From positions 620,001 through 684,000 of the forward strand of contig NZ_CP032489.1 of the NCBI RefSeq assembly GCF_003600625.1: a stretch of DNA of 64,000 bases. The letters are read 5' to 3'. A model generated the notes under the pieces. It searched no databases. It had not been told where the DNA came from and saw nothing but the letters and a program-made list of their open reading frames with translations. The DNA comes from Arachidicoccus soli. Lineage in GTDB: Bacteria; Bacteroidota; Bacteroidia; Chitinophagales; Chitinophagaceae. Below are positions 8,358 through 13,685 of this stretch, piece by piece; within the stretch, counting starts at the first letter, position 1; each line of letters begins with the position of its first letter. A program made the translations under genes and the position numbers.

Positions 8358-8543
8358 TTAGGGGTTGTAATAGGAAAGCAACAATGCACCGTTTTCGGAA
8401 AACAGAAGTATCCTGTTTCGGTAAATAAGAATGCAATTTTTATTGAGCTCGATTGCTTGTCCGGATGTCTTTGTAAGCTTGAATTTTTTATTTTTAGAAG
8501 GGTTTGCAATAAGGCACTTAACTTTTTCAATTTGCTTTTCCAT
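8358..8543 (-). CDS. Hypothetical 61-residue protein upstream of the helicase fusion
   Basis: ATG at 8541-8543 opens a 61-codon frame: MEKQIEKVKCLIANPSKNKK, then a lysine-rich half and a compact hydrophobic C-terminus (CILIYRNRILLFSENGALLLSYYNP). It follows the 45-residue gene by 15 bp on the same strand, and the pair is divergent from the large helicase gene. No family is recognised. Composition and spacing look gene-like, and the competing frames on both strands have less plausible proteins. It could be a genuine small partner of the helicase or a fragment of an older gene. Confidence 0.45.
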   Translation of the reverse strand: MEKQIEKVKCLIANPSKNKKFKLTKTSGQAIELNKNCILIYRNRILLFSENGALLLSYYNP

Positions 8544-8558
8544 TTCGTATTTATCTTT

Positions 8559-8696
8559 TCAGTAATGAACAGGTGAGAAAGCGCAAACCAAGTCACCATT
8601 AACCGTTTTAACCCGAATGGCCTTCCCTTCCTCCCGGGCGAGCTTATTATCAATTGTTACAAGTAGGTCACTTGATATATTACCGAGCCTTACCAT
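8559..8696 (-). CDS. Hypothetical 45-residue protein upstream of the helicase fusion
   Basis: ATG at 8694-8696 opens a 45-codon frame ending in TGA at 8559-8561. The product begins MVRLGNISSDLL and has a charged middle (DNKLAREEGKAIRVK) and a short hydrophobic end. It is amphipathic and lacks a signal peptide. It is the first gene of a two-gene minus-strand unit that is divergent from the helicase fusion, leaving a 141-bp shared promoter region (8697-8837). I cannot name a family. The call rests on clean start-stop structure and tight spacing with the next small gene, so it remains tentative. Confidence 0.4.
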   Translation of the reverse strand: MVRLGNISSDLLVTIDNKLAREEGKAIRVKTVNGDLVCAFSPVHY

Positions 8697-8837
8697 TTGA
8701 AGTAATTTACAGGTTGTTATATGCAAATCTTTAATTTTACGAATTAAATGTTAAATTAGCATTCTATTATACTGGCTATTAAATATTGTGATTTTATATA
8801 CAGATAGATAAACAAAACCAAAATCTTCTTAAGTTTA

Positions 8838-11800
8838 ATGCTAATAGGTGAACAAAATAATACACGTTTAATTACATTCATTGATACAGAAATAGAGCCG
8901 AACAAAGGTAAAATACTTGATATAGGTGCAATTAAAGAAAACGGTAATCAATTTCATAAAGCATCTTTAGGGGATTTTGTTCAATTCCTAAAAGGCGATG
9001 ATTATGTGTGCGGGCATAACATATTAAATCACGATATAAAATATATAGGTAAGGCAATTTATGATGTCGGTATTAACCCCCAACACATAATTGATACACT
9101 ATACATATCTCCCTTACTATTTCCGACAAAGCCCTATCATGCATTATTGAAGGATGACAAACTTCAGACGGAAGACACAAACAACCCGTTAAACGATTCC
9201 ATTAAAGCTCGAGATTTATTCAATAGTGAAGTTGCAGCTTTTTGGCAAACGGATGAAACCCTTAAAGAAATCTTCTGTCTTCTTTTAAATTCTACAAAGG
9301 AATTTGGTGCATTTTTTAAGTTTGTAAATTACAGGAGTATCAATACTGATACGGAAGGCCTGATTAGTTCAAAGTTCCGAAACGAAATTTGTGAGGATGC
9401 AAATCTAACCGAAATAATAGCTGAACACCCTATTGAATTGGCCTATTGCCTAGCATTGATCAATTCATATATAACCTATAAAACGGTTCATTCTATTATG
9501 CCCCCATGGGTTCTAAGGAACTTTCACGAAGTAGAGCGCATAATGTTATTATTACGGAGTAAACCTTGTATAACCGGTTGTAATTACTGTAACAATGCCC
9601 TTGACATTCACAAAGGGTTAAAAAGATTCTTTGGTTTTGATTCATATCGGACTTATGGTGGTGAACCTCTTCAGGAAAAAGCCGTAAAGGCAGCCGTGAA
9701 TAACAAGTCGGTACTGGCTGTTTTTCCTACAGGTGGAGGAAAGTCAATTACATTTCAGGTACCGGCACTTATGAGCGCTGAAAATTCAAAAGGGTTGACA
9801 ATTGTAATTTCACCGCTTCAGTCATTAATGAAAGACCAAGTTGACAATCTCGAAAAGAATGGCATAACTGAAGCAGTTACCATTAACGGGCTATTAGACC
9901 CTATTGAAAGGGCCAAATCGATTGAAAGGATTGAAGATGGTTCTGCATCTATTCTTTATATTTCTCCTGAATCACTGCGGTCTAAAACTATCGAAAAGTT
10001 GATTTTAGGTAGGAAAGTTGCCCGTTTTGTAATTGATGAAGCGCACTGTTTTTCCTCATGGGGGCAAGACTTCAGGGTGGACTATCAATACATCGGTAAT
10101 TTTATAAAACTAATTCAGGAAAAGAAAAACCTTGAGGATGGTATACCGGTATCGTGCTTTACAGCAACAGCTAAACCGAAGGTAATTGAGGATATACGGA
10201 ATTATTTTAGCGAAAAGCTATCATTGGATCTTGAAGTTTTCACGTCAAAAGCGTCAAGGACTAATCTTCAATACAAGGTATTTGAAAAACAAAATGAAGA
10301 AGAAAAATATTTGACCGCAAGGGAATTAATTGAAGAGAAAAAGTGCCCCACAATTATTTATGTATCCCGAACCCGAAAAGCTTACCTGCTAGCTGAAAGG
10401 TTAGCAAATGACGGATTTAGTGCAAAACCATATCATGGAAAAATGGAGAAGCAGGAGAAAACTGAAAACCAGGATACCTTTTTAAATGGCGAAACGCAAA
10501 TTATGGTGGCCACTTCCGCATTTGGTATGGGAGTAGATAAAAAAGATGTAGGCTTAGTTATTCATTATGAAATCTCAGATTCACTTGAAAACTATGTTCA
10601 GGAGGCAGGGCGTGCAGGCAGGGATGAAAATATCTCAGCTGATTGTTTTGTGCTGTATAAAGAAGAAGACCTTAGTAAGCACTTTATTCTGCTCAACCAG
10701 ACCAAGCTTTCCATAAAAGAAATTCAGCAGGTTTGGAAAGCGATAAAGGATATTACAAGATACCGTTCAAAAGTATCCAATTCAGCATTAGAGATTGCCC
10801 GTAAAGCCGGTTGGGATGATAATGTGGTAGAAATAGAAATGCGGGTAACTACTGCAATTGCTGCTCTTGAAGATGCAGGATATCTTAAACGTGGGCAGAA
10901 TATGCCGAGGGTATTTGCTAACAGTATTTTATCTAAAAATGCCCAGGAGGCTATTGATAAAATAAACACTTCGGAAAAATTTGAAGAAAAGCAAAAAGAG
11001 CACGGCGTACGAATTATAAAAAAACTCTTTTCAAGTAAAAGCAGAAAGCAGGCTAACAACGAAACTGCGGAATCAAGAGTAGATTATATTAGTGATCATT
11101 TGGGTATTGTAAAAGAAGAGGTCATAAATGTGATAAACTTGCTACGTGAGGAGAATATTCTGGCAGATGCAAAGGACCTAACCGCATTTATAAAGAAAGC
11201 AGACAATAAAAACCGATCCCTTTCCATTGTAGAGACATACAGTAAAATTGAAAATTATTTACTTCAGGTTTTCAAAGAAGAAGAAAGTATCTTTCATTTG
11301 AAAGAATTGAACGAGGAAGCTGAAAAAAATGGGGGTGATGGTGTAAATACCAATAAGCTTAAAACGGTAATTAACTTTTGGTCTATTAAAAACTGGATTA
11401 AGAGAAAAAACTTAGAGCATTCTAAAAATCACATTGCTGTATACTGCCTTCAAAGTAAAGAGCAGTTAAAAGATAAGCTCGAAAAACGGCATGAGCTTGC
11501 AAAATTTATCGTTGAATTTTTTTATGAAAAAACGATCACTGAAGTGATAAAAGATCAGGAAGATAAAGAGGAGATTTTGGTGGAGTTTTCAGTGCATGAG
11601 GTAAAGGTTGCTTATGATAATGGCTTTAGCCTTTTTAAAAAAGAAGTAAGTATTGAGGATATTGAAGATACGTTGTTCTATCTTTCACGAATTGAAGCAA
11701 TAAAGATAGAAGGCGGTTTTCTTGTTGTGTATAACCGCTTAACCATTGAGCGAACTGAACAAAACAATAAAAAGCAATACACTAAAGACGATTATCAAAA

Positions 11801-13685
11801 GCTCAGCCAATTCTACGAAAGCAAAGTGCAGCAAATACACATTGTTGGGGAATATGCCCAAAGAATGATTGCCGATTACAGGAATGCACTTCAGTTTGTG
11901 GAGGATTATTTCCAACTCAATTATAGTTCATTCTTAAACAAGTATTTTAAAGGGAGTAGGCAAAATGAGATTAAGCGGAACATAACACCGGCAAAATTCA
12001 GGCAGCTGTTTGGAGAACTTTCGCCTACACAGCTAAAGATTATTAATGATAACGAAACGCAGTACATTGTTGTGGCTGCTGGCCCGGGCAGTGGAAAAAC
12101 AAAGGTATTGGTCCATAAACTGGCTTCGCTCCTCTTAATGGAAGATGTCAAACATGAGCAGTTGTTAATGCTGACATTTTCTAGGGCTGCTGCTACCGAA
12201 TTTAAAAAGCGTTTACTAAAACTGATTGGCAACGCCGCGAACTTTATTGAGATTAAAACATTTCATTCTTATTGTTTTGATCTCTTGGGTAAGGTAGGTA
12301 CTTTAGAAAAATCAATGGATATTTTAAACACTACGGTTGAAAGGATTAAAAATGGCGAAGTTGAGTCCAGTAAAATTACAAAGACCGTTTTAGTTATTGA
12401 CGAAGCCCAGGACATGAATGAAGATGAATTTGCTCTTATTAACGCATTGATGGGGCAGAATGAAGAAATGAGAGTTATTGCTGTGGGAGATGATGACCAA
12501 AATATTTATGAATTTAGGGGCGCAAGTTCTAAATATCTTGAACAGTTCATTTATGACAACGATGCCATAAAGCATGAATTGGTTGAAAATTACCGTAGTA
12601 AAAACAATCTCGTTACATTCTCAAATCAGTTCGTCCGACAAATTCAACACCGCTTAAAAAAAACACCCATCATTGCTAATCAAACCGATAATGGAAAAAT
12701 CAAGGTAATTAGGTATCAAAGCAGTAATTTGATTACACCTCTTGTAACTGATATAGCTAAGGTAGATCTTTATGGAACCACATGTGTACTCACAAAAACG
12801 AACGAGGAGGCTATAAAAGTGGCCGGACTACTTTTAAAAAATGGCATTAAGTCAAAACTGATACAATCTAATGATGGTTTTAGTTTGTATAATCTTGTTG
12901 AAGTCCGGTTTTTACTGGATAAAGTAGATTCAGGAGCTGAGATTTACACAATTAGTGATGAGGTTTGGGACAATGCTAAACGAGAGCTAGTCAACACCTT
13001 TCGTAACAGCAATAAATTAGAAGTCTGCCTGAACATTATCAAAGATTTTGAGACTACTAATCCTTATAAAAAGTATAAATCTGATTTAGAAGTCTTGATT
13101 CGAGAATCTAAACTGGAGGATTTTTATAATGAAAATGGCGAAACAATTTTTGTGTCTACAATCCATAAAGCCAAGGGTAAAGAGTTTGACAATATATTCC
13201 TTTTACTTGAGCACTTTAATATAAGTACAGACGATGCTAAGCGACAACTGTATGTAGCATTGACCAGGGCTAAACGCAACCTATATGTACATCTAAATGC
13301 AGACTATCTTAATCATTTAGTAGCAGAAAACCTTGAACAAATCGACGATTTTGAAACTTACAATACACCTGATAAAATTGCTATACATACTACCATGAAA
13401 GATATCTGGTTAGACTATTTCATCAACAAACAGGTTTCAGTTTCCCAACTAGTTTGTGGAGAAGTATTGCGTGTTAAGGGTGATGAATGCTTAAATTCAA
13501 ATGGACAGCCCGTGTTGAAATTTTCAAAGCTACTAATTAAGAAAATTGAGGAAATGGAGTCAAAACACTATAAATTGAGAAGTGCAAATGTGAATTTTAT
13601 ATTGTACTGGCTTAAGGAAGGAACTTCGCAGGAAATCAAAATAATTTTACCTGAGCTTTATTTTGAAGCTATTGAGTATAAGTAA
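8838..13685 (+). CDS. DEDDh exonuclease - RecQ helicase - UvrD helicase fusion
   Basis: A 1615-residue protein with three enzymatic modules. Residues 10-130: a DnaQ-like DEDDh 3'-5' exonuclease (FIDTEIEP; GHNILNHD; HALLKDD...NPLND). Around 245: a Cys cluster, CITGCNYC. Residues 270-620: a RecQ-type SF2 helicase with Walker A FPTGGGKS (about 294), VIDEAHC (about 397) and motif VI QEAGRAGRD (about 587). Residues 620-1060: winged-helix and charged regions. Residues 1065-1520: a UvrD/Rep-type SF1 helicase with AAGPGSGKT (about 1078), VIDEAQD (about 1185), GDDDQNIYEFRG (about 1216), STIHKAKG (about 1440) and ALTRAKR (about 1473). All motifs are intact. RecQ and UvrD proteins both move 3' to 5', so one polypeptide would carry two same-polarity motors plus a nuclease. 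A role in DNA repair, recombination or anti-phage defence is inference. Confidence 0.93.
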   Translation: MLIGEQNNTRLITFIDTEIEPNKGKILDIGAIKENGNQFHKASLGDFVQFLKGDDYVCGHNILNHDIKYIGKAIYDVGINPQHIIDTLYISPLLFPTKPYHALLKDDKLQTEDTNNPLNDSIKARDLFNSEVAAFWQTDETLKEIFCLLLNSTKEFGAFFKFVNYRSINTDTEGLISSKFRNEICEDANLTEIIAEHPIELAYCLALINSYITYKTVHSIMPPWVLRNFHEVERIMLLLRSKPCITGCNYCNNALDIHKGLKRFFGFDSYRTYGGEPLQEKAVKAAVNNKSVLAVFPTGGGKSITFQVPALMSAENSKGLTIVISPLQSLMKDQVDNLEKNGITEAVTINGLLDPIERAKSIERIEDGSASILYISPESLRSKTIEKLILGRKVARFVIDEAHCFSSWGQDFRVDYQYIGNFIKLIQEKKNLEDGIPVSCFTATAKPKVIEDIRNYFSEKLSLDLEVFTSKASRTNLQYKVFEKQNEEEKYLTARELIEEKKCPTIIYVSRTRKAYLLAERLANDGFSAKPYHGKMEKQEKTENQDTFLNGETQIMVATSAFGMGVDKKDVGLVIHYEISDSLENYVQEAGRAGRDENISADCFVLYKEEDLSKHFILLNQTKLSIKEIQQVWKAIKDITRYRSKVSNSALEIARKAGWDDNVVEIEMRVTTAIAALEDAGYLKRGQNMPRVFANSILSKNAQEAIDKINTSEKFEEKQKEHGVRIIKKLFSSKSRKQANNETAESRVDYISDHLGIVKEEVINVINLLREENILADAKDLTAFIKKADNKNRSLSIVETYSKIENYLLQVFKEEESIFHLKELNEEAEKNGGDGVNTNKLKTVINFWSIKNWIKRKNLEHSKNHIAVYCLQSKEQLKDKLEKRHELAKFIVEFFYEKTITEVIKDQEDKEEILVEFSVHEVKVAYDNGFSLFKKEVSIEDIEDTLFYLSRIEAIKIEGGFLVVYNRLTIERTEQNNKKQYTKDDYQKLSQFYESKVQQIHIVGEYAQRMIADYRNALQFVEDYFQLNYSSFLNKYFKGSRQNEIKRNITPAKFRQLFGELSPTQLKIINDNETQYIVVAAGPGSGKTKVLVHKLASLLLMEDVKHEQLLMLTFSRAAATEFKKRLLKLIGNAANFIEIKTFHSYCFDLLGKVGTLEKSMDILNTTVERIKNGEVESSKITKTVLVIDEAQDMNEDEFALINALMGQNEEMRVIAVGDDDQNIYEFRGASSKYLEQFIYDNDAIKHELVENYRSKNNLVTFSNQFVRQIQHRLKKTPIIANQTDNGKIKVIRYQSSNLITPLVTDIAKVDLYGTTCVLTKTNEEAIKVAGLLLKNGIKSKLIQSNDGFSLYNLVEVRFLLDKVDSGAEIYTISDEVWDNAKRELVNTFRNSNKLEVCLNIIKDFETTNPYKKYKSDLEVLIRESKLEDFYNENGETIFVSTIHKAKGKEFDNIFLLLEHFNISTDDAKRQLYVALTRAKRNLYVHLNADYLNHLVAENLEQIDDFETYNTPDKIAIHTTMKDIWLDYFINKQVSVSQLVCGEVLRVKGDECLNSNGQPVLKFSKLLIKKIEEMESKHYKLRSANVNFILYWLKEGTSQEIKIILPELYFEAIEYK

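Follow-up and report, generated by a model that had tools for sequence, protein, structure and literature searches.

A mobile exonuclease-RecQ-UvrD fusion gene of Arachidicoccus soli, a candidate single-protein helicase-nuclease against foreign DNA

In a stretch of 64,000 nucleotides of Arachidicoccus soli (contig NZ_CP032489.1, positions 620,001 to 684,000), hereafter the window, one gene encodes in a single chain a DEDD-type exonuclease domain, a RecQ-type helicase of superfamily 2 (SF2) and a UvrD/PcrA-type helicase of superfamily 1 (SF1). The reading frame, on inspection, starts with the ATG at 8838 and its stop codon ends at 13685, giving a product of 1615 residues, such that the coordinates and length given in an earlier note on this DNA were right. 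The three modules that the note had seen within one chain were recovered as well, the motors by Pfam and NCBIfam models and the nuclease by a profile match. The dN/dS ratio of the window gene against its closest homologue (L067) is 0.066, which excludes a chance open reading frame (ORF). From sequence comparison, it is a stand-alone, horizontally transferred accessory gene, mobile between distantly related bacteria, and its most likely role would be in defence against phage or plasmid DNA.

The records of the family are labelled in RefSeq as 'RecQ family helicase' or 'RecQ family ATP-dependent DNA helicase'. The earlier note knew of no described system of such composition, and a literature search, which did not extend to most subscription journals and the full bioRxiv, likewise gave no description of the fusion or of its function. 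We regard the architecture as a family of its own within the known kind of helicase-nucleases.

Domain architecture and catalytic residues

Conservation was read from an alignment of 34 homologues, selected from 62 rows after leaving out near-duplicates, fragments and L052, whose frame was not parsed. The four metal-binding acids of the N-terminal domain, D16, E18, D66 and D120, are kept in 34/34. Pfam recognised 0 families in the 260 N-terminal residues of the window protein alone, the exonuclease domain staying below threshold; the profile of the 34 homologues matched a profile of 18 RNase_T exonuclease stretches, drawn from six genomes, with an hhalign probability of 97.5% (E 6e-12), and this match places the four residues on the four catalytic acids. 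Compared with one annotated exonuclease alone, the N-terminal profile reached an hhalign probability of 5.9%. The PDB sequences gave weak matches to the family profile (best E 0.0013), 12 of the 17 being T7 DNA polymerase, PolC, DnaQ, DEDDh, Cas2-DEDDh or chains named exodeoxyribonuclease III. The acids, together with the hhalign match, assign the domain to the DEDD exonuclease superfamily.

The histidine of the canonical H-x4-D in motif III, which defines the DEDDh subclass, would fall at residue 115, and there the homologues have N (32/34) or S (2/34); H101 is present in 33/34 but is located away from that position. The nuclease is therefore DEDD but not canonical DEDDh, and the intact DEDDh exonuclease of the earlier note stands for its four acidic residues and not for its histidine. 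The substitution in every homologue would fit a domain that is catalytically dead or very slow, a DNA-binding module in a protein that is a two-motor helicase only; however, four invariant metal-binding acids are unusual for a dead domain and H101 could substitute as catalytic residue. We consider such a loss of the nuclease unlikely, a judgement that cuts across the readings of function given below and is not part of their sum.

AlphaFold2 was run in two parts, each from an alignment of 25 rows. In the model of residues 1-700 (mean pLDDT 81.1, pTM 0.71) the block pLDDT is about 90 across most of the exonuclease domain and falls below 50 at residues 104-111. All 50 PDB matches listed by Foldseek for this part are RecQ-family helicases, so the exonuclease fold itself is not confirmed by structure.

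The CxxxCxxC cluster that had been noticed between nuclease and RecQ is real (C244, C248, C251), but was incomplete as described, and a fourth conserved partner, C185, is to be added. The joint presence of the four cysteines in nearly all homologues (Table 1) suggests that they form one putative metal site. The exceptions are L077, which lacks all four, and L076, with one alignable cysteine.

For the RecQ part, the best Pfam stretches are DEAD at residues 277-452 (E 5e-35) and Helicase_C at 493-595 (E 4e-24). The protein scores 284.5 bits with TIGR00614 (recQ_fam, cut-off 219.8), which places it in the RecQ family, and 326.1 bits with TIGR01389, the equivalog of housekeeping RecQ, below the cut-off of 640.2. 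Two further RecQ-type genes of the host genome (L002 and L003) are 40% and 37% identical to the RecQ part. The UvrD part exceeds the gathering thresholds of both PF00580 (E 7e-33, 114.8 bits versus 23) and PF13361 (E 1e-21, 77.9 bits versus 25.6), as a UvrD/PcrA helicase of SF1A should, and Foldseek ranked UvrD, PcrA and Rep at the top for the model of residues 640-1615 (mean pLDDT 78.7, pTM 0.53), with AdnB, AddA, RecB and GajB lower. The motor signatures PTG.GK, DEAH, TAT, AGPGSGKT, DE.QD and GDDDQ vary little or not at all among the homologues. RecQ and UvrD/PcrA helicases are 3'-5' motors. The linker between them has a helix-strand pattern in the AlphaFold2 model and gave low-scoring matches to PDB sequences, mostly transcriptional regulators (best E 0.0042), together a weak hint that it could hold winged-helix modules.

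Table 1. Features of the fusion gene, in window coordinates
Feature	Residues	Position	Strand	Basis
Complete gene, exonuclease-RecQ-UvrD fusion	1615 aa	8838..13685	+	Pfam and NCBIfam matches, dN/dS
DEDD-type 3'-5' exonuclease domain	11-135	8868..9242	+	Invariant acids, profile match; canonical His position is N115
Putative four-cysteine metal site	C185, C244, C248, C251	9390..9590	+	All four in 32/34 homologues
RecQ-type SF2 helicase core	260-640	9615..10757	+	PTGGGKS 297-303, DEAH 400-403; Pfam, TIGR00614, Foldseek
Linker, helix-strand pattern	641-1055 (about 415 residues)	10758..12002	+	Secondary structure of the AlphaFold2 C-part
UvrD/PcrA-type SF1 helicase	1056-1490	12003..13307	+	AGPGSGKT 1081-1088, DEAQD 1188-1192; Pfam, Foldseek
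C-terminal tail, no named domain	1491-1615	13308..13682	+	Best Pfam stretches all end at or before residue 1486

Distribution, horizontal transfer and neighbourhood

Genome samples were searched with the N-terminal profile of the family, the counts including the window's genome or G395, an Oscillospiraceae genome, itself. The family is present in 27/195 genomes of Chitinophagaceae (about 14%), in 15/390 of Bacteroidota (about 4%) and in 11/249 of Bacillota, the phylum of G395. One of the Chitinophagaceae copies, that of G448, agrees in coordinates and protein with the copy L057 of Hydrotalea, another genus of this family. Among 40 loci taken from genomes, 39 are full length with no stop, and one (L156, from G414) has an in-frame stop. 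Six of the 11 Bacillota copies lie in frames of 1604-1640 residues, two (L247, L248) are cut off by contig ends and three are eroded, with residues 809-1441 missing from L246 and 230-714 from L249, and with only pieces of 12-233 left in L250.

The phylogeny points to transfer. In a FastTree tree of 76 proteins the window copy is nested in a 17-row clade with full support, in which the other 16 rows are all from Flavobacterium, and it is 82-93% identical to these (93% to L067). Compared with the Flavobacterium genome G174, the gene is 88% identical, whereas SecDF, encoded beside it in the window, is only 45% identical over 619 residues. Three congeners are among the genomes listed: G411 and G570 have no copy, and that of G501 is 57.8% identical to the window's, less than three copies from another phylum (64.5-66.6% identity), and lies on a different contig from the G501 SecDF gene. 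To the left of SecDF several genes are kept in G411 and G501; to the right, the content differs from that of the window.

Copies were also found on mobile elements. Plasmids gave matches in 26/72,556 records at E up to 1e-60, with more than 80% of the query covered in five (Bacteroides, Phocaeicola, Aliarcobacter and two cyanobacteria). Six plasmid copies from proteobacteria carry annotations as single proteins, 1537-1756 residues long. A search of IMG/VR with the N-terminal profile yielded 11 loci on predicted viral contigs, and one with the single window protein had no match. The frames on these contigs are of 1577-1713 residues in seven, of 1483 and 1525 in two, and cut by contig ends in two; some of the neighbours resemble host genes, so viral carriage is not proven. 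Among INPHARED phage records 25 matched, 0 of them covering more than 80% of the query, and the 20 of these listed all matched the RecQ part only. The gene could serve plasmids or integrative elements themselves, in replication, transfer or the destruction of competitors, and not the protection of the host as such. The plasmid records speak for this, including the Aliarcobacter plasmid, where the gene adjoins parA/parB and replication genes, as do the predicted viral contigs, whose scanned neighbours include members of integrase and resolvase families, but the plasmid copies are rare and no mobile-element partner is constant among the 87 loci compared, and we hold this explanation to be quite improbable.

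The neighbours in the window are secDF and a small lipoprotein-like ORF on the left and, on the right, one gene for an ammonium transporter and one for an NhaA antiporter; no defence gene is among them. The pair of tiny divergent genes that the earlier note had placed upstream is there as open frames (8358-8543 and 8559-8726, both on the minus strand), but it is not conserved; having no counterpart in the other loci compared, the two were rejected as partners. Between 13690 and 14650, about 1 kb before the ammonium transporter gene contains no sizeable ORF, its right part being AT-rich with diverged repeats, and Rfam had no match in window positions 1-30000. Left of the SecDF block, at 611-1780 on the minus strand, lies a transposase-like gene with an integrase core (rve_3, HTH_23).

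Across the 87 loci, some of which are duplicate records, the largest cluster of neighbours is common to 7, all of them from Flavobacterium and with two of the genomes entered in duplicate, and a conserved operon partner was rejected on this ground. A co-directional ORF lies within 60 bp upstream in 10 and downstream in 4 of the 73 loci with both neighbours called. In Nostoc sp. C052 (L077, 16936-19782), the fusion gene is followed, after about 100 bp, by a DEAD/DEAH helicase gene in the same direction. The positions of the homologues vary, with restriction genes close to a few of them, and do not always fall in one syntenic core location, and these varied surroundings, along with the patchy presence in the genome samples, bear out the accessory nature proposed earlier.

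Comparison with known systems

Hna is described in PMC13381803 as a single-effector helicase-nuclease of about 2% of bacterial genomes that acts by abortive infection, and as a 3'-5' exonuclease of single-stranded DNA. As a single-protein helicase-nuclease it is the closest working analogue of our protein; however, Hna joins an SF2 helicase to a C-terminal PD-(D/E)XK nuclease, whereas here the DEDD domain is N-terminal and the motors are of two superfamilies, and the family falls outside Hna by its domain order and nuclease. The human Werner protein (WRN) resembles it in the fusion of a 3'-5' exonuclease to a RecQ helicase, and residues 261-622 are matched by WRN helicase chains in the PDB (best E 1e-36). 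A UvrD motor is not known in WRN, whereas our protein is bacterial and mobile, and carries both this motor and a four-cysteine site between exonuclease and RecQ. MrfA and MrfB of B. subtilis are reported in PMC12458937 as a 3'-5' helicase and a 3'-5' exonuclease of nucleotide excision repair; they differ in being two proteins, with a helicase of the YprA family and no SF1 motor.

These two likenesses open the main rival to a defence role, namely an accessory enzyme of DNA repair or replication restart, WRN-like or MrfAB-like, that would act at damaged forks or cross-links and would have spread horizontally as a fitness gene. The protein shares its pair of activities with WRN (exonuclease and RecQ) and with MrfA/MrfB of nucleotide excision repair (PMC12458937), and its two motors belong to families, RecQ and UvrD, of housekeeping repair enzymes. 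Nevertheless, the family is missing from most sampled genomes, is carried by plasmids, has restriction genes in some of its neighbourhoods and occurs in a host with two further RecQ-type matches, and we regard a repair function as possible but tentative.

Among defence families, the best PADLOC matches for the RecQ part were DpdF (E 1e-98) and PsyrT (E 3e-84), which span residues 256-641 and 277-640 only. A Dpd system would have a full-length DpdF with dpd genes beside it; the protein scores 224.6 bits with the NCBIfam DpdF model (cut-off 550) and has no widely shared neighbour. GajB of Gabija, a UvrD-like SF1 helicase, is among both the PADLOC and the Foldseek matches, but GajB acts with GajA as a separate subunit, and the 87 loci have no widely shared neighbour that would correspond to GajA. 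The earlier note was reminded of RecBCD and AddAB. RecB, AddA and AdnB are indeed among the structural matches of the UvrD part, and the logic of ATP-driven end processing is alike in RecBCD, AddAB and AdnAB; the nuclease fold is another one and there are no subunits here. Kinship with RecBCD/AddAB as parts was not upheld, there being no PD-(D/E)XK match in Pfam and no partner subunit (neighbour clusters of at most 7/87 loci).

Proposed function and significance

By analogy with Hna, the protein would most likely be a single-protein helicase-nuclease that attacks or blocks replicating phage or plasmid DNA. With Hna as the closest working analogue, and WRN and MrfAB as analogues in repair, we give defence an even chance, place repair clearly behind it and a mobile-element function last. 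In the proposed mechanism, the RecQ core and the linker would load the protein onto single-stranded or forked DNA; its two motors, both expected to run 3'-5', would pull the strand in and unwind it, and the DEDD domain would trim the 3' end emerging behind the motor, the four-cysteine site, if it binds metal, pinning nuclease to motor.

The neighbourhoods offer a modest and tentative signal of defence islands through proximity to type I restriction. A type I methylase (N6_Mtase, PF02384) lies within 15 kb in 4/40 genomes, where 0.47 are expected (P 0.0014); the wider limit of 30 kb takes in 6/40, where 0.93 are expected (P 0.0004), the expectation being based on 67 matches at E up to 1e-30 over 172.6 Mb. 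The closer ones are in G033 (at 651 bp), G351, G448 and G481, the other two in G564 and G572, and all six fusion genes also have HsdS (PF01420) in their vicinity, at distances of 3.2-11.0 kb and 26.2 kb. No sulfatase (PF00884), taken as a neutral marker, was seen within 30 kb among the rows listed, which were read by eye. On an Allochromatium plasmid the gene is about 0.9 kb from an hsdS/hsdM/hsdR set, and on the predicted viral contigs (8 of the 11, with 66 neighbours scanned) restriction, AbiEi, AbiV, resolvase and integrase families were included. Families seen beside the gene on these contigs (L218-L222, L224, L225 and L227) are a TOTE conflict-system primase domain, AbiV HEPN, AbiEi and an AlwI-type endonuclease. 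For comparison, 41.9% of diDNases are given in PMC11706625 as lying within 10 genes of a defence system, versus 2.1% for orn; the figure for our family, which counts type I systems only, is below this.

Several observations weigh against the defence role. Type I methylases are lacking within 15 kb in 36/40 genomes, that of the window included, and both limits, 15 kb and 30 kb, were picked after the data had been seen. PADLOC matched 201 and 84 families with 219 case proteins versus 95 and 38 with 220 control proteins, but these are families and not genes, and the control regions were hand-picked, being mostly contig starts and some short, so no gene count is drawn from the scans; moreover, control regions match defence models too (SngA, SngB and SngC of Shango). 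The strong matches to these three in one control batch (L198-L214) suggest the possible presence of a Shango system in one of the control regions. No NCBIfam family among those listed, and no PADLOC model among the best 25 of the 59 matched families, spans the whole protein. Repair enzymes too move between genomes, and with Asn or Ser in place of the DEDDh histidine, nuclease activity is not assured. The role in phage defence or on foreign DNA that the earlier note had suggested is plausible, with a few copies near restriction genes, but unproven; the enrichment near defence genes is modest.

Tentatively, the family could represent a new class of single-gene immune enzyme, a self-contained dual-motor (SF2 and SF1) nuclease with a histidine-less variant of the DEDD site and a four-cysteine clamp, exchanged among several bacterial phyla, that would do alone what complexes like RecBCD or Gabija need several subunits for. 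If this is true, a compact one-gene helicase-nuclease, present in about 4% of the sampled genomes of its phylum and 14% of those of its own family, and hidden behind the name 'RecQ family ATP-dependent DNA helicase', joins bacterial immunity. The protein also offers a test of how a nuclease works together with two motors, presumably of the same polarity, on one polypeptide, and of whether a DEDD active site functions when the usual histidine is missing.
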